DNA from: Komagataeibacter europaeus LMG 18890
GTDB taxonomy: Bacteria; Pseudomonadota; Alphaproteobacteria; Acetobacterales; Acetobacteraceae
Direction of reading: 5' to 3'
Assembly: GCF_000285295.1 (NCBI RefSeq)
Contig: NZ_CADP01000030.1
Coordinates: 1-32,062, forward strand
DNA: 32,062 nucleotides
The translations under genes and the position numbers were made by a program. This document shows positions 5,964-25,589 of the stretch, piece by piece. The first letter of the stretch is position 1, and the number at the start of each line of letters is the position of its first letter. The notes under the pieces are model-generated. The model did not search any database. It was not told where the DNA came from and worked only from the letters and a program-made list of their open reading frames with translations.

Positions 5964-6106
5964 GGTGGATGTGTTCCCAATCAGTACAGTTTCATGATGT
6001 GTCGGCTGATTGTACATATACAGGATGTCGGTTGGGTATTACGTTTATGGAATGAATCGTCTCCGCACCAGGGATTGGGGGCGTATTTCGGTAACAGGAT
6101 TGTAAT
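5964..6106. promoter_or_regulatory. Divergent control region between mocR-like and aminotransferase genes
   Basis: It must hold both divergent promoters. AATCAG (5979-5984) and CTGATT (6006-6011) form an inverted pair 21 bp apart, and GTAC occurs in or next to each half (AGTACAG and TTGTACAT). An AGGA about 7 bp before the ATG at 6107 serves as ribosome-binding site. Operator status is inferred from position only. Confidence 0.45.
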
Positions 6107-10982: not shown

Positions 10983-11000
10983 TATTTGACCTAACAAAAT

Positions 11001-11065
11001 ACAGCGGGGCCGGGTAATGGAAGGGTGCGGAATGCGTCGGTCTTTCCCGGCTGCCTGTTCGCTGT
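11001..11065 (+). other. Intercistronic stem-loop between the TonB receptor and mauB-like genes
   Basis: ACAGCG (11001-11006) pairs with CGCTGT (11060-11065), and GCCGGG (11009-11014) pairs with CCCGGC (11046-11051), giving a nested stem. There is no T-run after it, so it is more likely an RNA-stability or attenuation element than a simple terminator. Confidence 0.45.
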
Positions 11066-11086
11066 CGTGAAAGGATAGCCAGGGCA

Positions 11087-12250
11087 ATGACGTGTTTTTC
11101 CAGACCCAGGTACCTGCTGCTGGCCAGCGTTATCGGAATGGGGGTATCGGTGGGGGATATGGCGAAAGCCATCCCTCCCGTTCTTCAGCCGGAACAGAGC
11201 GACGTGGCCAGCCTTCCCCCAATGGGCGACCATTCGGTTCTGGTGGCCACGGGGGAACAGTCCTTTACCCTGTATGACGGGGACAAGGGACGGATACTGG
11301 GCACGCTCCCTGCCGAGATGGTCGATAATATCGCCATTGCCCCCGACCGTAAGGATATTTACGTCGCCGTAACCATGTGGAGCCGGGGAGATCATGGCAC
11401 GCGGGAAGATTTCCTGCGGGACTATGATGCACATACCCTTGACCTGACACATGAAATTGAACTGCCGCCCCGTGGTCTGGCGGTATTCAAGCAGCAGAAC
11501 CTGGAACTCAGTCAGGATGGGCACTGGGCATTCGTATTCGACATGAGTCCCGCGACTGGCGTCACCGTGGTTGACCTGCATGAACACAAGGCAGCCCGGA
11601 CGGTTGACATACCCGGTTGTGCATTGATCTTCCCCTGGGCGCATGATGGTTTTTCCACCATCTGCGGTGACGGATCCCTGACCAACGTGGCGCTGGCGGG
11701 CAATAACGTAAACGTCACCCACAGCAAGCCGTTTTTCGATGCCAACCGTGATCCCGTATTTGAACAGAGCCAGGTTGATCGCAAGACGGGCAAGGCCCTG
11801 TTCATAAGCTATACCGGGCAGGTTTATCCCGTCACATTGGGGGCAACGCCCGTCATGGGCAAAACCTGGTCGCTACAGGCTGCAGCAGGTCAGTCCGCAG
11901 CCGGTACGGGACAGCAGGAACAGGCATGGCGTCCGGGTGGGGACCAGCCGTTTGCATGGCATGAAGTAGACAACAGGCTGTATGTCCTGATGCATGTGGG
12001 GGGATACTGGACCCACAAGCAGGAAGGGACCGAGGTCTGGGTCTATGATGTCACGACCCAGCATCTGTTGCAGCGTATTGACCTGCCTTCGCCCGCCAAG
12101 GGCATTACAGTCAGCCCCGATACAGCCAATCCACAGATATATGCCATGCTGGCATCCAAGAAGATGGCCATTTTGTCTGCCACAACGGGTCAGGTTGAAA
12201 AAACGGTTGAGGCAAAAGCCAGTGGCATTTCAATTGTGCCGCAGCCGTAA
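11087..12250 (+). CDS. TTQ amine dehydrogenase heavy (alpha) subunit, copy 1
   Basis: 387 residues with an N-terminal signal peptide (MTCFSRPRYLLLASVIGMG, cleaved near the DMAKA region). The protein is a seven-bladed propeller of the methylamine/aromatic amine dehydrogenase heavy-chain family. Shared family features include VLQPEQSDVASLP, ELSQDGHWAFVFDMSPATGVTVVDL, the Cys pair in VPGCAL-like IPGCALIFPW and STICGDGSL, and a closing YWTHKQEGTEVWVYDV. Periplasmic. It forms an alpha2beta2 enzyme with the light chain encoded 65 bp downstream and channels the amine to the TTQ cofactor. It is a clear paralogue of the heavy chain at 23348-24580 but diverged. The substrate cannot be read from sequence. 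Confidence 0.9.
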   Translation: MTCFSRPRYLLLASVIGMGVSVGDMAKAIPPVLQPEQSDVASLPPMGDHSVLVATGEQSFTLYDGDKGRILGTLPAEMVDNIAIAPDRKDIYVAVTMWSRGDHGTREDFLRDYDAHTLDLTHEIELPPRGLAVFKQQNLELSQDGHWAFVFDMSPATGVTVVDLHEHKAARTVDIPGCALIFPWAHDGFSTICGDGSLTNVALAGNNVNVTHSKPFFDANRDPVFEQSQVDRKTGKALFISYTGQVYPVTLGATPVMGKTWSLQAAAGQSAAGTGQQEQAWRPGGDQPFAWHEVDNRLYVLMHVGGYWTHKQEGTEVWVYDVTTQHLLQRIDLPSPAKGITVSPDTANPQIYAMLASKKMAILSATTGQVEKTVEAKASGISIVPQP

Positions 12251-12315
12251 CCGGCGACCCGTCTTCTGTATGTGAATGTTCCAAAAGCGACTGGAAAGTT
12301 TAAGGGATCTATCGG

Positions 12316-12885
12316 ATGAAACCATCATTTCTGGAGCAGATAGGGGAACAGTTAACCCGTAAGCTGGCTTCATCATCCTCGCGCCGTGGTGTGCTGGGAC
12401 GGGTGGGGACGGCCATGGTTGCCGGTGGTGTTTTCCCGCTTCTGCCGGTACAGCGCGCCAGGGCCGCGGCGGGAAGTGCCGCACCCAGGCTGGCGGATGT
12501 GACGACATTGTCCGATTTTGAACGGCGCGCCCAGTCATCCGATCCTACAAAATGCAATTACTGGCGGCATTGCGCGATTGACGGCGTGCTGTGCGGGTGC
12601 TGTGGCGGTGGTATCCATACCTGTCCGCCTGGCACGCAGCCTTCGCCGGTATCTTGGATCGGCACCTGTCGTAATCCGGATGACGGGCGTTCGTATGTCA
12701 TCGCCTATCGTGATTGCTGCGGGCGTACCACCTGTACCACGTCATCGGATTGCGAATGCAATACGGCAGACCGCGAAATGCCGATTTACCGACCACAGAC
12801 CAGCAATGACATCATCTGGTGTTTCGGTACGACCTCCGCCGCCTATCATTGTTCTACCGCTGCCATAGTCGGGCAGGCTGAATAA
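12316..12885 (+). CDS. TTQ amine dehydrogenase light (beta) subunit, copy 1
   Basis: 189 residues with a long twin-arginine type signal (SSRRGVLGRVG at about 21-31, cleavage near RARAA), as usual for MauA. The mature part matches MADH beta: CNYWRHCAIDGVLC, SWIGTC, YVIAYRDCCG and NDIIWCFG. The two TTQ-forming tryptophans are W114 and W168, equivalent to Trp57 and Trp108 of Paracoccus MADH. The equivalents of the key aspartates Asp32 and Asp76 are D89 and D133. There are 14 cysteines rather than the usual 12; the extra ones are in GCC (about C96) and TTC (C140). The position of the conserved MADH Thr122 appears to be Ser (YHCST). It is followed after 15 bp by a cytochrome c gene. No mauE/mauD is adjacent to this copy. 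Confidence 0.92.
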   Translation: MKPSFLEQIGEQLTRKLASSSSRRGVLGRVGTAMVAGGVFPLLPVQRARAAAGSAAPRLADVTTLSDFERRAQSSDPTKCNYWRHCAIDGVLCGCCGGGIHTCPPGTQPSPVSWIGTCRNPDDGRSYVIAYRDCCGRTTCTTSSDCECNTADREMPIYRPQTSNDIIWCFGTTSAAYHCSTAAIVGQAE

Positions 12886-12900
12886 GTACAGAAAACGGTT

Positions 12901-13473
12901 ATGCAGATGCGTAGGGAACGGCCCGGTCCATGGTTTTTGCCGATTGCAATGTCTGTCGCTACCATCCTGGCATTCAGTGCTGCGTTACCCCTGACCGCCC
13001 ATGCCGATGGCGGGAATGCGCATCCGGCAGGGGAGAATGGACCTGTGCTGTCACAGGTCAGGGCGCATTACCTGGTTGGTTGTGGCGGCTGCCATGGCAT
13101 AACGGGGGTATCGGCATCTGATGTCGTACCTGATCTGAAGGGACAGGCCGGATATTTCCTGTGTTCGCCCAAGGGGCGCGAATACATGATCCATCTGCCC
13201 AATGTTGCGTTTTCCCCGCTGTCTTCGGCCGACCTTGCCGATCTCATGAACTACGTTGCGTTCGGCCTGGGGGGCGATAGCGTGCCTGCGGGCGCGCGTC
13301 CCTATACCGCAGCCGAGGTGGCGCGGTTGCGACAGGCGCCGTTCCGTAACTACAGCCTGCAATCCTACCGGCTTGATGTGGTGCGTGATGTCATTCATGC
13401 CTGTCCGCAGGCGGCAACGGTCATTCATGCCTATGACCTTGCGCTTGATAAGCGTGAAATAGACAATAAATGA
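12901..13473 (+). CDS. Periplasmic monoheme cytochrome c paired with light chain copy 1
   Basis: 190 residues: signal peptide (LPIAMSVATILAFSAALPLTAHA) and one heme site CGGCH (C61, C64, H65). The downstream motif PYTAAEVARLRQ is shared with the cytochrome at 20705-21205, which is likewise tied to an amine dehydrogenase, so the two are paralogues. Two further conserved Cys (C88 in FLCSPKG and one in HACPQA) could form a disulfide. Where the paralogue has a likely axial Met (VSMSL), this protein has Phe (VAFSP), so its sixth heme ligand is uncertain. It lies 15 bp after the light chain and is probably its electron acceptor in place of amicyanin or azurin. Confidence 0.85.
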   Translation: MQMRRERPGPWFLPIAMSVATILAFSAALPLTAHADGGNAHPAGENGPVLSQVRAHYLVGCGGCHGITGVSASDVVPDLKGQAGYFLCSPKGREYMIHLPNVAFSPLSSADLADLMNYVAFGLGGDSVPAGARPYTAAEVARLRQAPFRNYSLQSYRLDVVRDVIHACPQAATVIHAYDLALDKREIDNK

Positions 13474-13477
13474 AACT

Positions 13478-13549
13478 GGTTGTGAAAGGATAAACCAACC
13501 GGATACAGCCCCCATATTTTCCCTGCGCATGGGAGCGGGTTGGTGGGGG
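13478..13549 (+). other. Leader with mutually exclusive hairpins before the permease gene
   Basis: GGTTG (13478-13482) can pair with CAACC (13496-13500), while CCAACC (13495-13500) can instead pair with GGTTGG (13538-13543). CCCCCA (13509-13514) can also pair with TGGGGG (13544-13549). The alternatives overlap, as in attenuators, but no T-run terminator is seen and no known riboswitch class is recognised. Confidence 0.35.
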
Positions 13550-13616
13550 TGACGTGTATTGTAACTCATGATTCCTGCGACATACGGAATGTGCAGTGTC
13601 AGGGCAGGAGAAGCAT

Positions 13617-15068
13617 ATGAGCCGGATTCCCCCACACAACAGTGCTGCTGAAGCCCCGTCACAGGCGGCGCGGCTCAAGGACCGGCACGTATCGATGATT
13701 TCCATTGGCGGCGTGATCGGGGCCAGCCTGTTTGTCGGGTCATCGACCGCAATCGCAACGGCGGGTGCGGGTGCGCTGTTTTCCTATTTCCTGTCTGGCA
13801 TCATGGTCATGTGCATTACCCGCATGCTGGGGGAAATGACGGTTGCTTCCCCCGGGACGGGATCATTTGTCGGCCAGATACGGCGTGGCCTCGGCCCCCG
13901 CGTGGCGTTTGTCGCCGGATGGCTGTACTGGATCATGTGGGCTACCGTCCTGGGGTTCGAGGCCATTGCCGCCGCGGCCTTTCTTGCACCCTATGTGCCC
14001 TTGCCCTATCTGGTGATCGAACTGCTGACGGTCGCCATCATGACGGTGGTCAACCTGTTTTCCGTGCGTGGGTATGGGGAGTTCGAATACTGGTTCTCCG
14101 CCCTCAAGATCATCACCATCATTGTATTCATCCTGCTTGCCCTGTCCGGTCTGCTCGGGCTCTGGTCGCATGTGAAAGTGGCGTCCGGCCTGTTTTCCGT
14201 CGCGGGTCTCGTGCCGCATGGCACATTCGCGCTTTTTGCGGTGATACCGGGTATCATGATGTCCATGGCCGGGGCAGAAATAACCAGTATTGCCGCATGT
14301 GATACGACAGACCCGGCTGGTAACGTCGCCCGTTCGACACGGACCGTGGCGCTACGGATCATGATTTTCTATCTGGCATCTATCGGGTTGATCCTGCTGC
14401 TACTTCCGCTGTCGCGCGTCGTGCCGGGTTCTTCGCCCTTCCTGGCCACGCTGGATTATATCGGCATTCCGTTTGCGCGTGCTCTGATGACCGCCGTCAT
14501 GCTGATCGCCACGCTGTCCGCCCTGAATTCCGGGATCTATATTACCTCGCGGGTCCTGTGCGACCTGGCGGAAAACCATGACGCGCCGCGCATGTTCCTG
14601 CAGCGGGACGGGCAGGGTACGCCCGCGCGCGCCATTCTGTGCGGCAGTGCGGTTGCGGTCATTATCGCTGTCATCGGCATGCTGGCGCCGGGGCGGGTAT
14701 TCAGCTTCCTGGTCAGTGCAAGCGGTACCTTCATCCTGTTCGACTATGTGCTGATCGTGCTGGCCCATATCCGCCTGCGGCGCGCCTGCCTGCGTAATGG
14801 TGAAACGGTGTCCCTGCCCATGTGGGGGTTTCCGTTTCTGTCCTATGGTATGCTGGCCTGCCTGTTTGGCGCGCTTGTCACAATGTTTTTTGCAACGGAT
14901 CATACACGTCAGGAAATCGTGCTGAGCACGATCAGCCTGGGCCTGATCATCGTCGTGGAATACCTGTCCGTGGGATATCGGACGCGGCGCCGGATGGCCC
15001 AATGTCAGGCTGAACGGAATGATGCATCCGGCACAACCCTGCGTGGTGATCCTGCCCGGTTGTCATGA
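13617..15068 (+). CDS. APC-family amino-acid permease (GabP-like)
   Basis: 483 residues from the ATG at 13617, which has AGGAG 6 bp upstream; the in-frame ATG at 13596 does not. About 12 membrane helices. The N-terminal HVSMISIGGVIGASLFVGSS is the signature of the AAT group of the APC superfamily (GABA, proline and aromatic amino-acid permeases), and GAEITSIAACDTTDP follows in the central region (GxE motif). Inner membrane, proton-coupled uptake of an amino acid. In this setting it could bring in the amino acid made in the periplasm by amine and aldehyde oxidation, for instance beta-alanine or GABA; that is an inference. The FAD oxidase gene follows closely. Confidence 0.88.
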   Translation: MSRIPPHNSAAEAPSQAARLKDRHVSMISIGGVIGASLFVGSSTAIATAGAGALFSYFLSGIMVMCITRMLGEMTVASPGTGSFVGQIRRGLGPRVAFVAGWLYWIMWATVLGFEAIAAAAFLAPYVPLPYLVIELLTVAIMTVVNLFSVRGYGEFEYWFSALKIITIIVFILLALSGLLGLWSHVKVASGLFSVAGLVPHGTFALFAVIPGIMMSMAGAEITSIAACDTTDPAGNVARSTRTVALRIMIFYLASIGLILLLLPLSRVVPGSSPFLATLDYIGIPFARALMTAVMLIATLSALNSGIYITSRVLCDLAENHDAPRMFLQRDGQGTPARAILCGSAVAVIIAVIGMLAPGRVFSFLVSASGTFILFDYVLIVLAHIRLRRACLRNGETVSLPMWGFPFLSYGMLACLFGALVTMFFATDHTRQEIVLSTISLGLIIVVEYLSVGYRTRRRMAQCQAERNDASGTTLRGDPARLS

Positions 15069-15115
15069 TGTTCTGATGCCGGCCTGGCCGGATTATGCTG
15101 GAGTACCCGTTTTCC

Positions 15116-16405
15116 ATGGTTTCATCTTCCGTCAAATCCCTTCCTCCCAGCCTGTACGCGGCCATCACCCCGCCCGGCCCGGATGCGCCTGTCCTGACAT
15201 CGGCGCAGGTGACCGATACCGTGATCATCGGCGGCGGCATTACCGGCCTGTCGGCTGCCCTGCATCTTGCGCAGGCAGGGCACAAGGCCATGGTGCTGGA
15301 AGCGAACGCCATTGGCTGGGGGGCATCCGGGCGTAACGGGGGGCAGGTCAATCCCGGCCTCAAATATACCCCTGCCGAGGTCGAACGTGACATGGGCGCG
15401 CGCGGTCATGCCCTGGTTGAAGCGGCATGGAATGCGCCCGATCTGGTTTTTGACCTGATCGAACGACATGGCATTGAGTGTGACGCGGCGCGTGGCGGCA
15501 CGATCCGGGCCGCGACGGCATCGGGCCAGCTGGACCATGAACGGACCCTGTTCAACGAATGTCGTGAACGTGGTGGCCCGGTCACATGGCTCGATCAGGG
15601 TGATATTGCCCGGCACACCGGGACAGACCGTTACTGTGGCGGGTTTATCGATGCACGTGGAGGGCAGATTAACCCCCTGGCCTATACACGGGGTCTGGCC
15701 CGGGCGGCGATGGACGCCGGTGCGGCTGTGCATGTGAACAGCCAGGTCCTTTCCCTACGACGGGACGAGGGAAAATGGCAGGTCAGGACACCGGCGGGCA
15801 GCGTGCATGCGCGGCAGGTCGTATTCGCCACCAATGGCTATACGGGCCGGTTGTGGAACCGGCTGCGTCGCACGCTGGTCCCGGCCTATAGCGCGATTGT
15901 CGCGACCGACCCACTGCCTGAATCCGTACGTACGCGCATCCTGGCGCAGCGTGAAGTCGTGTATGAACTGGGTGAACTGGTTACCTATTACCGCATTGAT
16001 GGTGCGGGGCGGCTGCTGATTGGCGGGCGTTCCGCCTCGCTCGACCTGTCCGGGCCGGAAACCTTTCCGTTCCTGCAGCAGCATGCACGGCGGCTATGGC
16101 CGTTTCTGGGTGATGTGACATGGCGTTACGGGTGGAACGGACAGATCGCCATTACGCTGGACCATTATCCCCACTGGCATGAACCGATGGAAGGGATCAC
16201 GGCATGCGTCGGCTATAACGGCCGGGGGGTCGCCATGGCGACGCTGATGGGGCGTGAGATCGCGCGGCGGGTAGAAGGGACCGGTGCAGGGGACCTGCTG
16301 CTGCCTGCTTCGCCAGTACGTCCCATTCCCGCCCATTTTGGCTGGCGCATCGGGGTTGCCGCTGCCGTGATACGGGGCCGCATCATGGACCGGCTGGCGC
16401 GATAA
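15116..16405 (+). CDS. FAD-dependent amine/amino-acid oxidoreductase (DAO family, PuuB-like)
   Basis: About 429 residues. Dinucleotide-binding DTVIIGGGITGLSAALHLAQAGH near the N-terminus is followed by GWGASGRNGGQVNPGL, the flavin-contacting stretch typical of gamma-glutamylputrescine oxidase (PuuB) and related D-amino-acid/sarcosine oxidases. The C-terminal VGYNGRGVAMATLMGREIA also fits. No signal peptide, so cytoplasmic. PuuA, PuuC and PuuD partners are absent from the window, so a full gamma-glutamylated putrescine route cannot be claimed. Other substrates such as D-amino acids or N-alkyl amino acids are possible. The start could be 15095 (ATG, no clear ribosome-binding site) or 15116 (GGAG 12 bp upstream). 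It lies 27-47 bp after the permease and is probably co-transcribed. Confidence 0.82.
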   Translation: MVSSSVKSLPPSLYAAITPPGPDAPVLTSAQVTDTVIIGGGITGLSAALHLAQAGHKAMVLEANAIGWGASGRNGGQVNPGLKYTPAEVERDMGARGHALVEAAWNAPDLVFDLIERHGIECDAARGGTIRAATASGQLDHERTLFNECRERGGPVTWLDQGDIARHTGTDRYCGGFIDARGGQINPLAYTRGLARAAMDAGAAVHVNSQVLSLRRDEGKWQVRTPAGSVHARQVVFATNGYTGRLWNRLRRTLVPAYSAIVATDPLPESVRTRILAQREVVYELGELVTYYRIDGAGRLLIGGRSASLDLSGPETFPFLQQHARRLWPFLGDVTWRYGWNGQIAITLDHYPHWHEPMEGITACVGYNGRGVAMATLMGREIARRVEGTGAGDLLLPASPVRPIPAHFGWRIGVAAAVIRGRIMDRLAR

Positions 16406-16411
16406 CCTGAA

Positions 16412-16462
16412 CCCGGGACCGGTTGCCGCTGGTGATACCGTCACCGGACGCCGGTACCCGGG
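16412..16462 (+). terminator. Large stem-loop after the FAD oxidase gene, probable terminator
   Basis: CCCGGGACCGG (16412-16422) pairs with CCGGTACCCGGG (16451-16462) with one bulge. An inner GGTGA/TCACC stem sits around 16431-16445. Only a short T4 follows, 8 bp later, so termination may be inefficient. Confidence 0.45.
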
Positions 16463-16694
16463 AACCCGTATTTTCCCATAATGGAATTTTCCCGCCATGA
16501 ATATGGCTGCCAGATTGCCTGACAGTAATGTTTCTGGCGGAATACTTTGTGCTGCCGACAAAAGGATGACGGTATCACTGTATTCCGTCGGGAATATACC
16601 TGCTGATTGAACTTGTTACGGAACCGCGATACAGTCAAACACGAAATCAATAGACCGCGGCAGGCGGGGCATATTCACTCAGAACAGGAATATC

Positions 16695-17165
16695 ATGCTG
16701 ACATTGCAGATTAATGGCAAAAGTGTCGAGGTGGACGTCGACCCCGATACGCCTTTGCTGTGGGTGCTGCGTGACGTGCTGGGCATGACCGGGACCAAAT
16801 ATGGCTGTGGCACTGCGGAATGTGGCGTATGCACCGTGCATGTCGATGGCAGGCCCGTGCGGTCATGCTCCCTGCCGGTGGGACTGATCGGGCCCCGGAA
16901 AGCCATAATCACTATCGAGGGGCTGCAGGCGGATCCCGTTGCCGCAGCCGTGCGCAAGGCCTGGCTGGATATTGACGTGGTGCAGTGCGGCTACTGTCAG
17001 CCCGGGCAGATCATGGCTGCGATCGCCCTGCTGAAAAAAATTCCCAATCCCACTGATGAACAGATCGAGGCGGGCATGTCGGGCAACCTGTGCCGGTGTG
17101 GAACCTACATGCGTATCCGTGCCGCCATCCGTAATGTCGCCGCAGCCCAGGGGGCAACCCCATGA
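16695..17165 (+). CDS. Molybdenum aldehyde oxidase, [2Fe-2S] small subunit (IorA/AldF-like)
   Basis: 156 residues, the normal size for the small subunit of IorAB-type molybdenum hydroxylases. The N-terminal plant-type [2Fe-2S] cluster uses C38, C43, C46 and C58 (GCGTAECGVC). The second cluster uses C98, C101, C133 and C135 (QCGYCQPGQ, NLCRCGTY). It passes electrons from the Mo cofactor towards the cytochrome subunit. AGGA lies 6 bp before the ATG. The stop overlaps the next start (ATGA, 17162-17165), so the subunits are translationally coupled. There is no signal peptide of its own; export by riding with the Tat-bearing large subunit is the usual model. Confidence 0.93.
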   Translation: MLTLQINGKSVEVDVDPDTPLLWVLRDVLGMTGTKYGCGTAECGVCTVHVDGRPVRSCSLPVGLIGPRKAIITIEGLQADPVAAAVRKAWLDIDVVQCGYCQPGQIMAAIALLKKIPNPTDEQIEAGMSGNLCRCGTYMRIRAAIRNVAAAQGATP

Positions 17166-19333
17166 CGTCGAAACGCATTTCTTCCCCGGCACTCCGGCGC
17201 AGGCAGGTTCTGGGCGGGGCAGGGGCCTTCGTGCTGGCCGCCATCCTGCCCGCCGGGCGCAGCCGTGGCGCGGGCATGCTGGTGGAAGATGCAACCGCCA
17301 GCTTCGCCCCCAATGCCTATATCCGGATCGGCAGTGACAATATCGTTACGATGATCCTGCCCAATATCGAGATGGGGCAGGGGATCTATACATCCTCCGT
17401 CATGCTGATGGCCGAGGAACTGGGCATTGATCCCCAGTCCGTCCGGATCGAGGCCGCACCACCCGGTGGCGGGGCCGAGATTACCGGCGGGTCCACCTCC
17501 TCCATGACCGAATGGATGCCGTTGCGGCAGGCGGGGGCTGCGGCGCGCACCATGCTGCAGCAGGCGGCCGCCGCACGCTGGTCGTGCGCCCCGGGCGCCT
17601 GTGTGGCGCAGGACGGCTATATACTCGGCCCCACCGGGCAGCGCCTGTCCTATGGCGAACTTGCGGCGGATGCGGCGAACCTGCCGGTGCCGAAGGACGT
17701 TGTTCTGAAAACCCCGGCACAGTTCCGCCTGATCGGCCGCCCGATGCACCGGCTGGACAGTCAGGTGAAGGTGGACGGGCAGGCCATGTTCGGCATTGAC
17801 GTGCAGGTGCCCGGCCAGAAGGTCGGCGCGGTGGCGGCCTGTCCCGTGATCGGTGGGCATGTTGGCCATGTCGATACACAGGCGGCGTTGAAGATACGTG
17901 GTGTGGTTGCCGTATTGCAGATTGATGATGCGGTCTGCGTTGTGGCCGACCACTACTGGGCTGCGCGCAAGGGACTGGCGGCGCTGGATGTGCAGTGGGT
18001 CGAAGGACCGAACGCCACGGTCGATACGCAGGCAATCTATCGGCAGTTGGAAGGCGGCCTGTCCAGTTCCGCCATCCTGGCGGACCATCATGGTGATGCG
18101 CAGCAGGCCATAACCCAGGCACATGGGCGGTACAGCGCGACCTATCGCCAGCCCCTGCTGGCCCATGCCACGATGGAGCCGATCAACTGCACCATCCATG
18201 TCCGCCCCGATGGCTGCGACATATGGACCGGCACGCAGGTGGCTGAACGCGCACGTGATACCACGGCGGAAGTCACCGGCCTGCCCAAGGACAGGATCAG
18301 GCTGCACAGCCAGTATATCGGTGGCGGCTTCGGACGCAGGCTGGAACATGAATATGTGACGCAGGCCGCCCGCTTCGGGCGACAGGTTTCCCATCCGCTC
18401 AAGATCATCTGGAGCCGGGAGGAAGATATTACCCGTGACCGTTTCCGTCCCGCCTATCTGGACCATCTGGAAGCGGGACTGGACGAACGTGGCTATATCA
18501 CCGGCCTGACGCATCGCATCGTCGGTCCTGCCGTGGTGGCGCGCTGGGAACCCTCTGGCCTGGGTGCCAACGGGTATGATGATGACCTTTCGGTCGGCAC
18601 TGTCATCACGCCTTATACCTATCCCGCCTATCGCCTGGAATTCGCACGGCGTGAACCTCCCGGTGTGATTACCGCATGGTGGCGCGGAGTGGGCGGCACG
18701 CGTGGACTGTTCGTGGTGGAGGGATTCATTGACGAACTGGCGCAGCGCGCGGGCGTCGATCCCGTGGCCTATCGCCGTGAAATGGTGCGCAACAACCCGC
18801 GCGCCCTTGCGGTGCTGGAACGCGTGGCGCGTGAATCCGGCTGGGGCACGCCGCTGCCGCCTAATTGCGGGCGCGGGGTCGCGCTGCAGTTTGCCTTTGG
18901 GTCATACCTGGCCACGGTTGCTGAAATCGAAATGGCCGGTCCGCACGATGTCCGCATCCGCCGCGTGACCTGCGCCGTGGATTGCGGGCAGGTCATCAAT
19001 CCCGACCAGATTGCGGCACAGATCGAAGGCGGGCTGATCTTTGGTTTCAGTGCCGCATTGTATAACGAGATTACCTTGGAAAAAGGGCGCGTGCAGCAGG
19101 ACAACTTCCATACATGGCGCGTCATGCGCATGAACGAGGCCCCCGGGCGGATTGATGTCCATCTGATCGAGAGTACGGAATCCCCTGGTGGCATAGGGGA
19201 AACAGGCACCGCCGCCGCCGCCCCCGCGCTGGCCAACGCCATGGCGGCGGTCCAGAAACGGCGTTACCGCTTTTTGCCGCTGCTTTCCCCCCTTAACCAG
19301 CCTTCTGGCCATGAGAAGGAGCAGCAGGGATGA
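17162..19333 (+). CDS. Molybdenum aldehyde oxidase, molybdopterin large subunit (IorB/AldH-like)
   Basis: 723 residues. A Tat-type signal (LRRRQVLGGAGAFVLAA at about 11-27) directs folded export to the periplasm. It belongs to the xanthine-oxidase superfamily, isoquinoline 1-oxidoreductase beta type, which includes the aldehyde dehydrogenase of acetic acid bacteria. Seen are QGIYTSSVMLMAEELG, the Mo-pterin stretch YIGGGFGRR (385-393) and the C-terminal GGIGETG with the probable catalytic Glu680. It oxidises an aldehyde (or N-heterocycle) with water as oxygen source. The substrate here is likely the aldehyde released by the flanking amine dehydrogenases; that is inferred from context. It overlaps the genes on both sides by ATGA. 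Confidence 0.9.
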   Translation: MTSKRISSPALRRRQVLGGAGAFVLAAILPAGRSRGAGMLVEDATASFAPNAYIRIGSDNIVTMILPNIEMGQGIYTSSVMLMAEELGIDPQSVRIEAAPPGGGAEITGGSTSSMTEWMPLRQAGAAARTMLQQAAAARWSCAPGACVAQDGYILGPTGQRLSYGELAADAANLPVPKDVVLKTPAQFRLIGRPMHRLDSQVKVDGQAMFGIDVQVPGQKVGAVAACPVIGGHVGHVDTQAALKIRGVVAVLQIDDAVCVVADHYWAARKGLAALDVQWVEGPNATVDTQAIYRQLEGGLSSSAILADHHGDAQQAITQAHGRYSATYRQPLLAHATMEPINCTIHVRPDGCDIWTGTQVAERARDTTAEVTGLPKDRIRLHSQYIGGGFGRRLEHEYVTQAARFGRQVSHPLKIIWSREEDITRDRFRPAYLDHLEAGLDERGYITGLTHRIVGPAVVARWEPSGLGANGYDDDLSVGTVITPYTYPAYRLEFARREPPGVITAWWRGVGGTRGLFVVEGFIDELAQRAGVDPVAYRREMVRNNPRALAVLERVARESGWGTPLPPNCGRGVALQFAFGSYLATVAEIEMAGPHDVRIRRVTCAVDCGQVINPDQIAAQIEGGLIFGFSAALYNEITLEKGRVQQDNFHTWRVMRMNEAPGRIDVHLIESTESPGGIGETGTAAAAPALANAMAAVQKRRYRFLPLLSPLNQPSGHEKEQQG

Positions 19334-20580
19334 CCATGACAGAACGTGGCCTTGGCCGCATCACCGGCATGCTGTTCGCGCTTCTGGCCAGCACGGGCAT
19401 CCATGGGGCGCGGGCGGCCGATGCCCCTGATGGGCAGTACCTGACCCGCGCGGCCGATTGCGAGGTCTGCCATACCCGTCCCGGTGGCACGCCATTCGCA
19501 GGTGGGCGTGCGTTTGCCATTCCCGGCATGGGGGTGATCTATTCCCCCAACATCACGGCGGACCGGCAGGCTGGTATCGGCGCATGGACGGATGACCAGT
19601 TCGTCAAGGCGGTCCGTGACGGGGTCTCACCGGGGTGGAAACACCTGTACCCGGCCATGCCGTACCGTGATTACGCGTATATGACGCCAGACGAGGTCAA
19701 GGCGATCCGTGCCTATCTGGCGACCCTGCCGAGCAGTGCCGCGCGGCCGCCGGAAAATACCCTGAAATTCCCGTTTTCGATCCGTTCAGCCATGATTTTC
19801 TGGAATCTGGTCAACGGACCGGCGTCCTCCCACCCTGATGATCCCGCCCATACCCCATCGTGGAACCGCGGCCGATATCTGGTCGAGGGGCCGGGACACT
19901 GCGCGGAATGTCATTCACCGCGTACGTTCACCATGGGTGTGTCCACCACCAATGCCTATGCCGGGGCGGATGTGGGGGGATGGCGGGCGTATAACATCAC
20001 GTCCTCGAAAACCGACGGGATTGGCGCATGGAGCGCGGACGACCTGGCCACCTATCTGTCCACCGGTCATGCGGATGGCCATGGCAGCGCATCGGGTGAC
20101 ATGGGGGATGTTGTCAGCCACAGCCTGCGTTTCCTGACCCGTCAGGATATCGGTGCCATGGTTGAATACCTGCGCGACATTCCCGCGCGGTCTTCCACGG
20201 ATGGGGCGCCGCCTGCCGTCACACAACCGACAGCCACCCACGATCAGGCAGACAGCCATGGCGCCATGCTGTATGCGGGGGCGTGTGCCGGATGTCACCT
20301 GCCTGATGGAAGCGGGCGACAGAACCCGGTAGCTTCCATCGCCGGGGCACGTACGACGCTGGGGGCCGCGAACGGGCAGAACCTGCTGCAGGTCCTGACC
20401 CATGGCAGCGCATTGCAGACGGCGACCGGCACCGCCGCGATGCCCGCGTTCCATGGTGGGTATTCCGATCAGGATGTGGCGGATATCGCCAATTTCGTCA
20501 TGCACCATTTTGCCCGGTCTTCCACAACGGTGAGTGCCGCGGACGTGGCGAAGGCAAAAACCGCATCCGCACCGGAATAG
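19330..20580 (+). CDS. Triheme cytochrome c subunit of the aldehyde oxidase
   Basis: 416 residues with a signal peptide ending near GARAAD. Three CxxCH sites: CEVCH (C44), CAECH (C191) and CAGCH (C319), each within a cytochrome c domain. This is the architecture of the cytochrome subunits of membrane-bound alcohol and aldehyde dehydrogenases in acetic acid bacteria, which pass electrons to ubiquinone at the membrane. The ATG overlaps the large-subunit stop (ATGA), and AAGGAG precedes it. A Met-containing segment follows each heme (for example TAAMPAFHGGYSDQDV). Three hemes rule out a MauG-type diheme maturase. A bidirectional terminator follows. Confidence 0.92.
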   Translation: MTMTERGLGRITGMLFALLASTGIHGARAADAPDGQYLTRAADCEVCHTRPGGTPFAGGRAFAIPGMGVIYSPNITADRQAGIGAWTDDQFVKAVRDGVSPGWKHLYPAMPYRDYAYMTPDEVKAIRAYLATLPSSAARPPENTLKFPFSIRSAMIFWNLVNGPASSHPDDPAHTPSWNRGRYLVEGPGHCAECHSPRTFTMGVSTTNAYAGADVGGWRAYNITSSKTDGIGAWSADDLATYLSTGHADGHGSASGDMGDVVSHSLRFLTRQDIGAMVEYLRDIPARSSTDGAPPAVTQPTATHDQADSHGAMLYAGACAGCHLPDGSGRQNPVASIAGARTTLGAANGQNLLQVLTHGSALQTATGTAAMPAFHGGYSDQDVADIANFVMHHFARSSTTVSAADVAKAKTASAPE

Positions 20581-20629
20581 GGCGGCATGTTCCCATAATG
20601 CCCCGGCCTGTATACCGGGGGGCTTGAAT

Positions 20630-20672
20630 AAAAAAGGATATGGCCCCGCGGACGGGTCATATCCTTTTTTTT
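20630..20672. terminator. Bidirectional terminator between convergent operons
   Basis: AAAAAAGGATATG (20630-20642) is fully complementary to CATATCCTTTTTT (20658-20670), and the inner CCC/GGG extends the stem. T-runs are present on both strands, serving the plus-strand aldehyde oxidase operon and the minus-strand amine dehydrogenase operon. Confidence 0.93.
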
Positions 20673-20704
20673 ATGTCAGGGCCTGCCTTGCGTGATGGGA
20701 AGGA

Positions 20705-21205
20705 TCACGTCGGTTTATGGGTCTGACAGGCCGCGACCGCATTTTGCAGGATATGGGCGCGTCGTTCCATGAAATCCGTAACGGACATGGGTGACTGTCG
20801 CCATTCATGAATTTCGGCAGCGGTATAGGGTTTTGCGGTGGCGGGCGTGCTTTTGCCACCCAGTGTGAACAGGACGAAGTTCATGACATCGGCCAGTTCC
20901 TGGTCATCGCGTATCAGCGACATGGAAACACCGGGCACCTGTACCAGATATCTGCGCCCTTCCTCGCTGCAGGCAAAGGTGCCTACCGTATCACGCAACA
21001 TGGGTACGAAAGTCGGGCCGGAAACACCTTCGATACCGTGGCATCCCCCGCAATGGGTCAGGTAGGCGGTCTGGGTCTGGTTCAATGTGGGGGCAGGCAC
21101 AGGGTTGGCCCGTGCCTGTAGTCCCCCTGATACAAACAGTGACGCGGCCACAAAGGCCGCGCCAATGCTTTTCTCAAGGCAGCTTTTTCTTGTCATTAAG
21201 CGCAT
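20705..21205 (-). CDS. Periplasmic monoheme cytochrome c, last gene of amine dehydrogenase operon 2
   Basis: 166 residues from the ATG at 21205, which has AGGA 5 bp upstream; a second ATG at 21196 is possible. A signal peptide ends near LQARAN. One heme site CGGCH (C52, C55, H56) and a probable axial Met (M95, VSMSL). The shared PYTAAEIHEWRQ segment makes it a paralogue of the cytochrome at 12901-13473, including two extra Cys (FACSEEG, AACQTH). Its start overlaps the upstream cytochrome gene by about 32 bp, so it is coupled. Probable electron carrier for amine dehydrogenase 2. Confidence 0.85.
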   Translation of the reverse strand: MRLMTRKSCLEKSIGAAFVAASLFVSGGLQARANPVPAPTLNQTQTAYLTHCGGCHGIEGVSGPTFVPMLRDTVGTFACSEEGRRYLVQVPGVSMSLIRDDQELADVMNFVLFTLGGKSTPATAKPYTAAEIHEWRQSPMSVTDFMERRAHILQNAVAACQTHKPT

Positions 21206-21644
21206 TGCGTTCCTGCAGCACGGCGGTCGGCGGCATGGTGGCGTCGCGGGCCGCGTGGATTTCGTCAGCCGTGAAGGACGGCGCCGACGCATTGCCCCCA
21301 AGGTGGGAGACATAGGTCAGGATGGCGGCAAGCTGCTCATCCGTCATGGCGCGGAAGGACGGCATGTAACCCATATAGGTTGCGCCACCTGCCTGAATGC
21401 TGCCGGTCATGCCATTCAGCACGAGGTGCGAAAGATAGGTCTTGCCTTCGGGCGAACCCGCGATGACGTCCAGACGCCCCTTCAGCGGGGGAAACTGCCC
21501 CGGAACCCCCGTGGCGCCCGCCTGGTGGCACAGGCCGCAATTGGCCCCGTAAAGCTGCTGTCCGTCTTCCGCCGCGTGCGCGCCATGGGTGCCGGCGACA
21601 AGACCGCAGGCAACAGCAAGGAGGGAGAGGGTTTTCTTGATCAT
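21174..21644 (-). CDS. Periplasmic monoheme cytochrome c in amine dehydrogenase operon 2
   Basis: 156 residues from the ATG at 21644. Signal peptide MIKKTLSLLAVACGLVAGTHGAHA. Heme site CGLCH (C36, C39, H40) and a probable axial Met in YMPSF (M94). It is a class I cytochrome c similar to those that end quinoprotein electron chains. The start overlaps the light-chain stop (ATGA, 21641-21644), so it is translationally coupled to mauA. It has no counterpart in the first amine dehydrogenase set. Confidence 0.88.
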   Translation of the reverse strand: MIKKTLSLLAVACGLVAGTHGAHAAEDGQQLYGANCGLCHQAGATGVPGQFPPLKGRLDVIAGSPEGKTYLSHLVLNGMTGSIQAGGATYMGYMPSFRAMTDEQLAAILTYVSHLGGNASAPSFTADEIHAARDATMPPTAVLQERNALNDKKKLP

Positions 21645-22228
21645 GTCGTGCTTCCGATAATTGCGGCGGTTGAGCAGTTGTACATTTCCGATGTTCCCGT
21701 GCCGAAACACCAGATAATGTCGTTATTGGCCATGGGCCGGTAGGACGGCTGGTCACCATCCGTGTTCAGGCAGTTGACCTCATCACAGGCATCCTGACCA
21801 CAGCAGTCGCGATAGGCAATCAGGTAGGAACGTCCATCCTGTGGATTGAAGCAACTGCCAATCCATGAAGTAGGCGAAGGGGCCGTGCCGGGCGGGCAGC
21901 TGTGAATGCCGCCACCGCATGATGTGCACAGGTAGCCGTCAATGGCGCAGTAACGCCAGTAGTCACATGCCGTGTCATCCTTGGCCTGTGCGTGGGCGGC
22001 AAACGGGCTGGGGGCCTTGACCGTCCTGGCCGCCGGGGTGGCGGTGGCGGCGGATGCACGGGTCACCGGCAGCAGCGGAAATGCCGGGACCGCCGCCATG
22101 GCGGCGCCCAGGCGGGCCAGCACGCCACGGCGCGATGACTGTCCGGCCAGCCTGCGCACCAGGTTTTCCGTCAGGCGGTCCATCAGGGACCCGTTACGTT
22201 CGTTATCAGCCCTGTCAGACGGCAGCAT
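21641..22228 (-). CDS. TTQ amine dehydrogenase light (beta) subunit, copy 2
   Basis: 195 residues from the ATG at 22228, chosen because AAGGA lies 8 bp upstream; the internal ATG at 22183 lacks one. Tat-type signal SSRRGVLARLG (31-41). The mature part has CDYWRYCAIDGYLC, SWIGSC, YLIAYRDCCG and NDIIWCFG. The TTQ tryptophans are W122 and W173, 51 residues apart exactly as in Paracoccus MADH (57 and 108). The aspartates are D97 and D141. It has the canonical 12 cysteines. The Thr122 position reads Ser (YNCST). It overlaps the mauD-like gene by 14 bp and the cytochrome gene by 4 bp. Confidence 0.93.
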   Translation of the reverse strand: MLPSDRADNERNGSLMDRLTENLVRRLAGQSSRRGVLARLGAAMAAVPAFPLLPVTRASAATATPAARTVKAPSPFAAHAQAKDDTACDYWRYCAIDGYLCTSCGGGIHSCPPGTAPSPTSWIGSCFNPQDGRSYLIAYRDCCGQDACDEVNCLNTDGDQPSYRPMANNDIIWCFGTGTSEMYNCSTAAIIGSTT

Positions 22229-22817
22229 GGGCAATTTCCTTTGTGACGTTACCGGCATTCTTGGCTCCGGCTTCAGAAGACTGGACGGCAGCTTCGATCT
22301 GCCGGCGCGTATTGACAATATCCTTGGCCAATATGGTCGCGTGGTCATCGATTATGACCAGTGTAGGCAACCGGTTGACCTGCAGCACCAGCGACAGTTC
22401 CACGCCGGTAACCAGCGTAAGCCCCGCCATGTCGGGACGGGCGGCCATTTCCTTCAGTTCAGGTTCCGCCCCATCGCCCACCAGCACCAGATCCAGTCCC
22501 TGCTCACCCGCAATCGCACGTGCCAGCGGCACGACGCGTTTGCATACGGGACAGTCGGGTGCAACGAATATGACCATCATCCGCCGACCCGCATCCAGCG
22601 GGCCGCCAATGACAAACGGCGCGCCCGCCAGCGTGCGCATGACCAGACGGGGGACGCTCTGGCCAACATCCAGTCCCTGATGCGCGGCCTGCGGGCCGAT
22701 GGGCGCCAGGCGTTCGTGCAGGATGCCGATCTGGCGGGCCAGCGCGAACAGGCCCGCAGCCAGCCCGAGCGCCACAATCGCCAGGGCGACCTGCCAGATC
22801 ACCAGAAATGTCATCAT
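22215..22817 (-). CDS. mauD: MauD-like thioredoxin-fold protein for light-chain maturation
   Basis: 200 residues from the ATG at 22817, which overlaps the mauE-like stop (ATGATGA). An N-terminal membrane anchor (FLVIWQVALAIVALGLAAGLFAL) is followed by a periplasmic thioredoxin-like domain with CPVC (C89, C92), the motif of MauD. In methylotrophs MauD is needed for correct disulfide formation and stability of the beta subunit, which has six disulfides. It sits between mauE-like and mauA-like genes as in mau and aau clusters. The only complete CxxC maturase in the window; it may also serve light chain copy 1. Confidence 0.9.
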   Translation of the reverse strand: MMTFLVIWQVALAIVALGLAAGLFALARQIGILHERLAPIGPQAAHQGLDVGQSVPRLVMRTLAGAPFVIGGPLDAGRRMMVIFVAPDCPVCKRVVPLARAIAGEQGLDLVLVGDGAEPELKEMAARPDMAGLTLVTGVELSLVLQVNRLPTLVIIDDHATILAKDIVNTRRQIEAAVQSSEAGAKNAGNVTKEIAHAAV

Positions 22818-23344
22818 GATGACAGCCCTTCCGTATTCGTGGGGGCCAGCACACGGGTCGCCCGCCACATCATGAACAGGCAGACCCCACCCACAATGCT
22901 TTCGACCCGCAGTACCGCGGCCTGCGGCAGGGCGATCCATACTGGCATCAGTGCGGGCAGCGCGCACAGCGCCGTGCGGGCGACCAGCTTCCATGAAAGG
23001 TGCTCGCCATCGCTGCCGGGCATGCACCCGCATGACAGGGCGGTGCGGCCACGGGCGACGTTTATGCCCATCGCCAGCGTGAACACGGCAATCAGTGCCA
23101 GCGACAGCAGGCCACCCGGACGGGTCGCCATGCCGGACAGCAGGGCCGTCGCCGCCAGCGTTTCCGCCAGTGCGATCCCCCACGCCACCACAGTGACAAG
23201 TGATGACGGCACAAGCCGGTAGGACGCGATGACCCCAAGGAAGCTGTCGTGATCCGCAAGCTTAGGCAGTCCCGCAAGCAGGAACATGCCCCCCACCAGT
23301 CCGCAACAGAGGCCGCATGCCCCTTGCAAAACCAGCATATCCAT
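22814..23344 (-). CDS. mauE: MauE-like membrane protein for light-chain maturation
   Basis: 176 residues with about four to five membrane helices and a CGLCCG stretch near the N-terminus plus CGC (SCGCMPG) in a loop, as in the MauE / DoxX-like methylamine utilisation family. MauE works with MauD in maturation of the TTQ light chain, probably in thiol-disulfide chemistry. It starts 3 bp after the heavy-chain stop and overlaps mauD by ATGA. Confidence 0.9.
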   Translation of the reverse strand: MDMLVLQGACGLCCGLVGGMFLLAGLPKLADHDSFLGVIASYRLVPSSLVTVVAWGIALAETLAATALLSGMATRPGGLLSLALIAVFTLAMGINVARGRTALSCGCMPGSDGEHLSWKLVARTALCALPALMPVWIALPQAAVLRVESIVGGVCLFMMWRATRVLAPTNTEGLSS

Positions 23345-23347
23345 CTC

Positions 23348-24580
23348 TTATTCCCCCGGAGCGACCGTGAAGACCAGATCCGTGCCAAGATGTTTCATGG
23401 TGCGCTGCAGCTTGCCGCTACGGGCATCAAGGATATGAAGGTCGCCCGCTTCATCCGACGTGAACATCAGGGGATGGTCATCCTGCGTCACGCCCACGAT
23501 CGGGCTGGCGGCGGGCAGGGGAATGCGGCGCACGCGCTTGTGCGTATTCGTATCGAATACCCAGACTTCCGTGCCGTCTTCCTTGTGGGTCCAGAACGTA
23601 CCCCGGTGCATGAGGACGTACAGTTCCCCGCTGCTGGCATGCAGGGCGGCAAGCTGCCAGCCACCGGGCCGCCATGCCACGTCGAAGGGCGCGCGCGCGT
23701 CGGATGCAACCGGCATGCCCGCCCCCTGCTGCAGGGACCACGGTGTGCCGATTTCGTCCGTCGCACCCAGCTTGACGGGATAGACCATGCCGCTGTCGGT
23801 AATGAACCACATATGCCCGTCATGCGTGCCCGGGCTATGTTCCAGCACGCCATCACGGTCCGGCACGAAGAAGGGAGCGGAATGGGTCAGTGACGCCTTG
23901 CCATCCGTGCCGATGGAGACGTTGGCCAGCGTGCCATCCGCGCACAGCGAGGAGAAACCGCTATTGCCCCATGGATAGGCGAGTGCGCAGCCGGGAACTT
24001 CAACCGTCTGTTCAACCGTATGGTTGTGCGTGTCGATCACTTCCACGCCGTTGGTCGGGCTCATGACATAGACATAGGCCCGGCCGCCATCGGCACTGAT
24101 GGCCAGATCGTTTTTCTTGGGCGTGACCAGGGCGCGTGCCGGCAGTTTTTCATCTGACAGGACAGCCAGCGTATGCGGGTCATACTGGACCAGCAGGTCA
24201 TCGCGCTGCCCGCGGTTGCCATGTGCCCATGTCGTTTCCGCGACATAGAAATGCTGCCCGTCGGGGGACTGCGCCACGTTGGCGTTGTAGGCGGCCTGTA
24301 CCATGCCCAGACGCCGGCCATGGTCCGCATCCACCACATAGACCCGGCCGTCCTTGTTATGGTTGTAAACGGCGTCTTCAACCAGGATCGTATGGGGACC
24401 GGCGGCGGGCAGGGTAATGGTATCGCTCTGTTCCGTCTGCAGAACAGGTTCCGCCCCGACCGCCACGGTCGGGGAAAGGGCGGTTGACGCAACCAGTCCA
24501 CACAGAAAAAGGCCAAACAGGTTACGGCATGCGCCGCTGTAACTTACAGTCATGAAATCGTTATCCCATCCAGGAATCAT
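23348..24580 (-). CDS. TTQ amine dehydrogenase heavy (alpha) subunit, copy 2
   Basis: 410 residues from 24580; an alternative ATG at 24553 gives a more typical signal peptide (MTVSYSGACRNLFGLFLCG). Cleavage is expected near AVGAEP. Propeller sequence of the MauB/AauB family: VLQTEQSDTITLP, YVAETTWAHGNRG, YVYVMSPTNGVEVIDTH, the Cys pair in VPGCALAYPW and SSLCADGTL, FWTHKEDGTEVWVFD. It is the first gene of a tight minus-strand operon with order B-E-D-A, the same as aauBEDA of aromatic amine dehydrogenase. Periplasmic. It shares these features with copy 1 but differs throughout, suggesting a different substrate or an old duplication. Confidence 0.92.
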   Translation of the reverse strand: MIPGWDNDFMTVSYSGACRNLFGLFLCGLVASTALSPTVAVGAEPVLQTEQSDTITLPAAGPHTILVEDAVYNHNKDGRVYVVDADHGRRLGMVQAAYNANVAQSPDGQHFYVAETTWAHGNRGQRDDLLVQYDPHTLAVLSDEKLPARALVTPKKNDLAISADGGRAYVYVMSPTNGVEVIDTHNHTVEQTVEVPGCALAYPWGNSGFSSLCADGTLANVSIGTDGKASLTHSAPFFVPDRDGVLEHSPGTHDGHMWFITDSGMVYPVKLGATDEIGTPWSLQQGAGMPVASDARAPFDVAWRPGGWQLAALHASSGELYVLMHRGTFWTHKEDGTEVWVFDTNTHKRVRRIPLPAASPIVGVTQDDHPLMFTSDEAGDLHILDARSGKLQRTMKHLGTDLVFTVAPGE

Positions 24581-24795
24581 TCAAGGATTATACCAGCATT
24601 ATAGAACGATCAAGAAACGTTATGGCTTGGATGCACATATGTAACGGATATGTCACGTTTATTTTCAAAAGGCGCAAAATACCGGCCCGCCATCTGGATC
24701 ATGCCGGCTGGATGGCGGTAGGATCATTCCGGTCCGTGCATGTATGCATGGGCCATGCGTCTTCATTATTCCACACAGCAGTGGCAGGCCGACCA
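24581..24795. promoter_or_regulatory. Divergent promoter region between mauB copy 2 and the second mauD-like gene
   Basis: It must hold the promoter of the B-E-D-A operon (minus strand) and of the MauD-like gene (plus strand). On the minus strand two TATAAT-type hexamers (around 24585-24605) lie close to the heavy-chain start, but no well-spaced -35 is evident. Confidence 0.4.
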
Positions 24796-25392: not shown

Positions 25393-25589
25393 ATCCTGCT
25401 ACCTGATTTCGATACGCGGCGGATGCGGGCGACATGCCGTTCGAATGCCGATATGGAACGGAAAGACATAAAGCCGGCACATTTCATGAATAAGTGAATG
25501 ATTGCAAGGGGGCTGACCGGCAACCCTGCTGCCGCCCCGAAGTTGGGAAGGCGCATTGGAACGGTTCCGGACTTTCCCAGGGGGATGGC

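Follow-up and report, generated by a model that had tools for sequence, protein, structure and literature searches.

Amine dehydrogenases with a tryptophan tryptophylquinone (TTQ) cofactor include two known systems. In Paracoccus and Methylobacterium, the heavy and light chains of methylamine dehydrogenase (MADH) are encoded in mau clusters along with MauE, MauD and MauG, the textbook builder of TTQ. The aau cluster of the aromatic amine dehydrogenase (AADH) of Alcaligenes faecalis reportedly has the order B-E-D-A (heavy chain, MauE, MauD, light chain), with a monohaem cytochrome c gene downstream and no mauG, and to our knowledge the way TTQ is made in enzymes lacking MauG has been an open question since that cluster was described. 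Here, we analyse a stretch of DNA from Komagataeibacter europaeus LMG 18890 (the window: bases 1-32062 of contig C292, which is 34,430 bases long; the genome measures 4.2 Mb) that encodes two TTQ amine dehydrogenase pairs and, beside each light chain, a small monohaem c protein that we call cyX. MauG may be the textbook builder, yet all the TTQ genomes in our samples of the family and the phylum lack it, and we tentatively consider cyX as its substitute.

The amine dehydrogenase pairs of the window

The window resembles the mau clusters in its heavy/light pairs, its TTQ residues, MauE and MauD. Pair 1, on the plus strand, consists only of the heavy chain B1 (11087-12250; Pfam PF06433, Me-amine-dh_H, 4.7e-47), the light chain A1 (12316-12885; PF02975, Me-amine-dh_L, 2.1e-52) and the cyX gene cy1 (12901-13473), with no mauE or mauD between them. 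Pair 2 belongs to an operon on the minus strand that runs from 24580 down to 20705 in the order B2 (23348-24580; PF06433, 2.2e-45), mauE (22814-23344; a membrane protein matching Pfam MauE at 9.6e-24), mauD (22215-22817; a thioredoxin-fold protein with a CPVC motif that scores 126.9 bits against TIGR02661, below the cut-off of 188.6), A2 (21641-22183; PF02975, 8.4e-51 in a scan that used a longer start of the open reading frame, ORF), cy2 (21174-21644; an ordinary Met-type monohaem cytochrome c, Pfam Cytochrom_C) and the second cyX gene, cy3 (20705-21196). A2 and cy2 overlap by 4 bases, and cy2 and cy3 by 23. Pair 2 has the aau-type order, B-E-D-A and then a gene for a small monohaem c protein, without mauG, whereas pair 1 is only B-A-cyX. 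The order B-E-D-A followed by a monohaem c gene is also annotated in Cupriavidus, Chimaeribacter, Haematobacter and Paracoccus sp. SMMA_5.

A sequence-only reading of this DNA had described two complete heavy/light pairs around a coupled three-gene molybdenum aldehyde enzyme, which the Pfam domains and the coordinates bear out, and both TTQ tryptophans in each light chain, which are indeed there: in an alignment of nine light chains including those of MADH and AADH, columns W114, W168, D89 and D133 (P0002) are invariant. The roles of the two tryptophans (TTQ) and the two aspartates (active site) are those we assume from MADH, and the light chains of the window would on these grounds carry TTQ. 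Its third claim, that the two enzymes have diverged, also stands (58% identity between the light chains and 41% between the heavy chains). There are 14 cysteines in A1 and 12 in A2, and the leader of both light chains contains SRRGVL, similar to a twin-arginine signal. Light chains of a divergent type, in two genomes of the Gluconacetobacter genus group and one Acidomonas (L051, L053 and L069), keep both tryptophans and have a histidine at the position of the active-site aspartate.

The same genome encodes a third TTQ pair, a light chain at 6436-6780 and a heavy chain to match, on a contig of 15.7 kb (C250); a tblastn search of this contig with the proteins of the window found no mauE, mauD or cytochrome. 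This pair had been overlooked by the sequence-only reading, as had the cytochromes after each light chain, the absence of mauG and a second MauD-like protein described below. Three other sampled Komagataeibacter genomes carry these genes, each with three light chains on a single contig, in stretches of 23, 27 and 30 kb (in G324 this contig breaks off within pair 2, and the heavy chain of that pair is found on a different one). Near the end of the window's contig, at 70-1042, there is a transposase that we take to be IS630-like, split over two frames and followed by unrelated genes. It is possibly the cause of the break in the three-pair locus between C250 and C292.

The pairs had been read as MADH or AADH, which the scores and trees do not support. 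The heavy chains score 157.3 and 162.5 bits against the MADH family TIGR02658, far below its cut-off of 454.45, and the light chains narrowly exceed the cut-off of TIGR02659 (198.2 bits for A1 and 203.6 for A2, against 196.85). For the phylogeny, a search of named genomes gave at least 567 relatives, from which the 80 best loci were retained, and genes in the fetched GC-rich loci were located by profile searches. Removing identical sequences and those without a heavy chain of 250 residues from 148 light-chain ORFs left 126 operons (one of K. swingsii is counted twice, as L041 and L144). In the tree of their light and heavy chains, rooted on six plasmid mau operons, these six stand apart. When the window pairs are included, pair 1 clusters with operons of Gluconacetobacter, Acetobacter and other Acetobacteraceae, beside Sphingomonadales, and a long branch within this cluster holds the third pairs (C250 type); pair 2 belongs to a different Acetobacteraceae group with 22 members (support 0.999). 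The light chain of A. faecalis AADH, 48-55% identical to the Komagataeibacter types, belongs to a 22-member group (support 1.0) from which both window pairs are absent, and that of P. versutus MADH falls among the mau operons in the light-chain tree. Given these positions, the window pairs fall outside the mauG-linked MADH and are not close to the characterised AADH; we know of no member of their group that has been characterised.

Light chains above the PF02975 cut-off were found in 36 of the 397 Acetobacteraceae genomes of the family sample and in 11 of the 398 genomes of the phylum sample, K. europaeus included (both counts leave out G122, with a weak, stop-ridden match below the cut-off, and the latter also a 23-residue match in G659). 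Within Komagataeibacter, 4 of the 14 genomes of the family sample have the genes and 10 lack them. The earlier remark that TTQ enzymes are little described in acetic acid bacteria is thus right for the open-licence literature that we searched, where the papers listed included nothing on point on TTQ or amine dehydrogenases in these bacteria, and wrong for their genomes. One paper on a cocoa-fermentation metagenome does report methylamine dehydrogenase genes (PMC9671152).

MauG and a cytochrome tied to the light chains

The six mau plasmid clusters (four from Paracoccus, one from Methylobacterium and one from Indioceanicola) carry mauF, mauJ, a MauG gene, genes annotated as NapG/NapH, which presumably are mauM/N, and, in five of them, amicyanin. 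Unlike these clusters, the window has no mauF, mauJ, mauM/N or amicyanin among its scanned proteins (which do not include every ORF), and mauG is absent as a sequence subfamily from these proteins and from the whole genome. The latter encodes only two proteins of the CCP_MauG family (PF03150), both on other contigs. The first has three CxxCH motifs and is nearest to PDB entry 9qdt (1.4e-123), which we take to be of the YhjA/CcpR type; the second is nearest to 6nx0, BthA (1e-70, against about 3e-35 for MauG). We therefore rejected the idea of a MauG under another name in this genome, both proteins being closer to other subfamilies. The BthA-like di-haem protein (L002:925-2181) adjoins a phosphoesterase-like gene, the context of BthA in Burkholderia; a study of BthA reports that its gene invariably follows one for a putative phosphatase and lies outside the mau operon (PMC6405878).

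The lack of MauG extends to the relatives. We built a MauG profile from the six mau plasmids, where the gene is annotated as MauG in two and as cytochrome c peroxidase in four, and it gave no match in 130 fetched loci (duplicates included). There is no mauG-type cluster in the 397 genomes of the family sample or the 398 of the phylum sample, and among the 36 Acetobacteraceae and 10 other genomes with TTQ light chains, no CCP_MauG gene comes nearer than 12.9 kb (in G364) to a light chain on its contig. We thus propose, as part of what we see as the best explanation of these sequences, that TTQ is made here without MauG. Literature on AADH with MauG amounted to one general review among open-licence sources.

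Could a general di-haem protein encoded elsewhere, of the 9qdt or BthA kind, complete TTQ, with cyX only assisting? K. europaeus has one of each kind, and BthA attains a bis-Fe(IV) state as MauG does, according to the BthA study (PMC6405878). Yet CCP_MauG matches are missing altogether from 19 of 72 TTQ genomes: 2 of the 36 Acetobacteraceae (G219, 100% complete, and G178, 89%), 3 of the 10 others and 14 of 26 named genomes (a set whose completeness is not given and that includes some metagenome-assembled genomes). Moreover, each of the ten Komagataeibacter without TTQ genes has at least one such match. A general di-haem protein in this role is thus very unlikely.

In contrast to the CCP_MauG proteins, cyX follows the light chains closely. 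Neither cy1 nor cy3, which are 44% identical over 122 residues, has a Pfam or NCBIfam match, and we searched for cyX in the genomes of both samples by scoring the best 10 candidates per genome. By coordinates, a strong cyX match lies within 2 kb of 74 of the 78 light chains in 46 genomes, and a light chain lies within 2 kb of 74 of the 75 strong cyX matches. The four light chains with no cyX nearby are those of third Komagataeibacter pairs. The lone cyX is in a genome that is 66% complete (G145); the contig there starts within the last part of a cy2-like gene, and the light chain may therefore have been cut off. At E <= 1e-12, the phylum genomes with cyX coincide with those bearing a true light chain (11 of them), and the family genomes with cyX number 37, namely the 36 with a light chain and G145. 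The best scores separate the two classes: at most 43.7 bits in the ten Komagataeibacter without TTQ genes, versus at least 69 bits in each of the 46 TTQ genomes.

The set of 126 operons shows the same association: cyX occurs without MauG in 114 and MauG without cyX in 6, the two never occur together, and 6 operons lack both. The last six comprise the four third Komagataeibacter pairs, one locus (L067) in which the ORF was missed and a later search found cyX at 151.8 bits, and a duplicate B-A copy from bacterium HR40, a genome with a complete B-E-D-A-cyX operon elsewhere. The mutual exclusion of cyX and MauG rests on the six mau plasmid clusters, and in mau-bearing organisms cyX was searched in the plasmid records only; seven aau-type plasmid clusters all have cyX and none has MauG. 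The duplicate B-A pairs in Komagataeibacter and HR40 lack cyX, mauE and mauD alike, which fits a maturation gene without proving it. A cy2-type gene adjoins cyX in 41 of the 114 operons, and in Ferruginivarius sediminum (L153:10375-11415) a Met-type and a cyX-type domain are joined in one di-haem ORF.

The cyX haem and its possible roles

The nearest solved relative of both cyX and cy2 is cytochrome c552 of Thermus thermophilus. The cyX profile matches 1c52 at 1.1e-18 and aligns to residues 10-49 and 73-129 of 2fwl, skipping residues 50-72. The alignment of cy2 with c552 covers almost the full length, and in the skipped stretch the MPSF of cy2 stands opposite the MSSF of c552, whose methionine (Met69 in the usual numbering) we take to be the sixth haem ligand. 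A joint alignment of cy2 and cyX agrees on both flanks of the gap that removes this loop, and cyX is about 18 residues shorter than c552 net, axial-Met loop included. Hence, cyX (including cy1, with the haem motif CGGCH, and cy3) has the class I cytochrome c scaffold of c552 and its CxxCH but not its axial-Met loop. It does not belong to CCP_MauG, as it has no PF03150 match and one CxxCH rather than two haems.

The short loop is a general trait of cyX. The spacing from GR.Y to N is 20-21 residues in 106 of the 114 cyX (18, 19 or 30 in the other 8, as given by the pattern), and 38-39 in the Met-type neighbours where it could be measured (4 of the 41 in the 126-operon set, and 7 in a separate list). 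The loop-length pattern gave no short-loop call for 28 of the 148 light-chain ORFs: the 6 mau, the 4 third Komagataeibacter pairs and 18 others, of which inspection showed 15 with a short-loop cyX, one broken (L140) and two with none (L067 and L148). An alignment of 101 cyX, from which one candidate (L067 read in the wrong frame, with no CxxCH) was left out, has an invariant CxGCH, and the scaffold Asn and Arg are each kept in 100. In the predicted model of cyX, residues 61-170 are confident (block means 82-98; overall pLDDT, the predicted local distance difference test score, 78.2), and the best match in a structure search was again c552, at E 2e-3, with none at or under 1e-3. The alignment revealed no conserved replacement ligand: the position in the shortened loop is H in 25 sequences, M in 23, F in 20, R in 7, K in 7 and Q in 5, and the column where Met is commonest (56 of 101; Leu in 35) is in the following helix, beside the Asn. 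The loss of the loop thus probably leaves an open sixth site at the haem.

The lost loop and the nearly one-to-one tie to light chains without MauG make cyX a candidate maturase. The peroxide of MauG and of the bacterial di-haem peroxidases binds a five-coordinate haem while a six-coordinate haem assists electron transfer, as set out in the BthA study (PMC6405878). By analogy, cyX would perform a peroxide- or oxygen-dependent oxidation of the two light-chain tryptophans, with cy2 or another cytochrome as its electron-relay haem partner, and MauE and MauD, one linked set serving all pairs, would aid the folding of the disulfide-rich light chain. The pairing of cyX with cy2, fused in Ferruginivarius, would then mirror the two-haem layout of MauG and the peroxidases. 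The likeness would be one of role, that of a c haem with an open site acting on the light chain: cyX is a single small c552-type monohaem domain, and we found no sequence relation to MauG. That cyX, alone or with its Met-type neighbour, replaces MauG in TTQ maturation is a tentative proposal, to which we give clearly less than even weight.

Several observations weigh against a maturase. Both GR.Y and the Asn occur in c552 as well, as does the scaffold Arg, and thus do not distinguish cyX. Most cyX have some methionine 30-75 residues past the haem histidine (only 8 of 101 have none), and cy3 carries one in the shortened loop itself. The model contains no haem and therefore gives no pocket geometry, and the peroxidase chemistry of cyX is something we infer from sequence. 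The operon of A1 keeps cyX without mauE or mauD, which does not single out a role in maturation. Finally, the position of cyX also fits an electron acceptor, because amicyanin, the acceptor of the mau systems, is encoded by the gene after mauA in five of the six mau clusters (Indioceanicola lacks it).

This last point underlies the main rival explanation, in which cyX is the dedicated acceptor of the TTQ enzymes, equivalent to amicyanin, with an odd or partner-supplied sixth ligand, and TTQ is finished by other means. Like amicyanin, cyX comes after the light-chain gene; it is a small c-type protein, and most of its operons have no cy2 neighbour. Yet the loss of the Met loop is odd for a carrier, whose haem potential it would alter, and cyX is retained even in the 41 operons where the normal carrier cy2 stands beside it. 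The loss of cyX along with mauE and mauD from the B-A duplicates also counts against an acceptor, yet an acceptor could act in trans. We regard the acceptor as a real possibility, if one still well short of probable. The very tight gene coupling could also point to a structural third subunit or assembly factor with a non-catalytic haem, in which case the oxidation of the tryptophans would fall to the heavy/light complex or to an enzyme encoded elsewhere, and the variable residue of the shortened loop would agree with such a role. However, CxGCH is invariant in all 101 aligned cyX, which indicates that the haem matters and makes a purely structural role improbable.

The aldehyde dehydrogenase and the rest of the island

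Between the two pairs, three genes, each overlapping the next by 4 bases, encode the [2Fe-2S] subunit (16695-17165, plus strand, as are the genes below unless stated; Pfam Fer2 and Fer2_2), the molybdenum subunit (17162-19333; MoCoBD_1 and MoCoBD_2) and the tri-haem cytochrome c subunit (19330-20580; three CxxCH) of a putative aldehyde dehydrogenase. These coupled Fe-S, Mo and multi-haem c subunits follow the design of the molybdenum aldehyde dehydrogenase of acetic acid bacteria, and PDB 8gy3 has the same subunits in one operon. The window enzyme is a distant relative of the latter: 8gy3_C is the best solved match of the Mo subunit (8e-66; 226 bits over some 700 residues), and the cytochrome subunit matches those of glucose, fructose and alcohol dehydrogenases, with 8hdd_B first and 8gy3_A only fifth.

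The sequence-only reading had proposed a periplasmic route from amine to acid. In such a route, the TTQ dehydrogenases (two here, the third elsewhere) would convert a primary amine into an aldehyde and ammonia, and the aldehyde dehydrogenase would oxidise the aldehyde to the acid, passing electrons to the respiratory chain. What stands of this proposal is that TTQ-type enzymes adjoin a membrane-type aldehyde dehydrogenase and that this neighbourhood recurs. A relative of the Mo subunit (aldL) lies within 10 kb of 29 of the 126 TTQ operons, 5 of them from Komagataeibacter and others from Acetobacter, Asaia, Gluconobacter and Novosphingobium, in several arrangements. This co-location in separate genera supports the route without proving it. 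Against it, a search within 10 kb of the operons finds neither aldL nor aldS for 97 of the 126, and none of the 29 is from Gluconacetobacter. That the aldehyde and amine dehydrogenases are mere neighbours working in different pathways would explain the 97, and would leave the recurrence in varied arrangements unaccounted for; we find it rather unlikely.

The genes around these systems hint at amines derived from amino acids or polyamines. They include a GABA (gamma-aminobutyric acid)-type amino acid permease (13596-15068; Pfam AA_permease, and 378 bits for GABAperm, below its cut-off of 678), an L-pipecolate oxidase-like FAD amine/amino-acid oxidoreductase (15095-16405; Pfam DAO, and 303 bits for NF050086, below its cut-off of 600) and an omega-aminotransferase of the AptA type (6107-7456; NCBIfam NF052567, 642.8 bits against a cut-off of 500), all of which would handle related nitrogen compounds in the cytoplasm. 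The aminotransferase gene is preceded by one for a regulator, presumably of the PdxR/MocR type (4569-6017, minus strand; Pfam GntR and Aminotran_1_2), with synteny in Asaia and Gluconobacter loci, and followed by a syntenic conserved neighbour, a small protein without an NCBIfam match that we presume to be tautomerase-like (7490-7903), and by a TonB-dependent receptor (8517-10982; Pfam TonB_dep_Rec_b-barrel and Plug). The window has no regulatory RNA or tRNA that we could find. The same gene order occurs in Komagataeibacter diospyri and K. swingsii. A plasmid origin of the island was considered and dropped, as megablast of 11000-20600 and 20601-27000 against a plasmid collection gave no match.

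Beyond B2 lies a second MauD-like protein, D2 (24796-25392, an inner start chosen in an ORF that opens at 24622; TIGR02661 at 116.6 bits, below the cut-off), in which CPIS replaces CPxC. Such proteins, with CPIS or CPVS, make up 37 of 164 MauD-type ORFs (duplicates counted; loci L047, L055 and L066 among others), are conserved despite the loss of the second cysteine, and come from Acetobacteraceae in the 20 named examples. Near D2, an FAD subunit of the xanthine dehydrogenase type (25590-26609, a chosen start in an ORF that opens at 25494; Pfam FAD_binding_5 and CO_deh_flav_C) has a cysteine-rich insert and is kept in two relatives; no partner subunits directly adjoin it. A small, secreted-looking ORF rich in Gly, Pro and Tyr follows at 27237-27623.

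Taken together, the locus can be read as a periplasmic amine-oxidation island in which TTQ is made without MauG, with cyX as the maturase, an account that we would place somewhat short of an even bet. Its central element lends itself to deletion, since it is one small gene, present in every MauG-less TTQ genome sampled and in none of the six mau plasmids. It is quite possible, if on balance doubtful, that most natural TTQ dehydrogenases are matured by a convergent cyX system, a tryptophan oxidase arisen by loop loss and working with or without cy2. If so, the five-gene set B-E-D-A-cyX would be a minimal TTQ factory, and there would be a second and much simpler route for oxidising a protein's own tryptophans, useful for recombinant quinone enzymes. 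In acetic acid bacteria, the periplasmic oxidation of amines would join the known periplasmic oxidation of alcohols and sugars.

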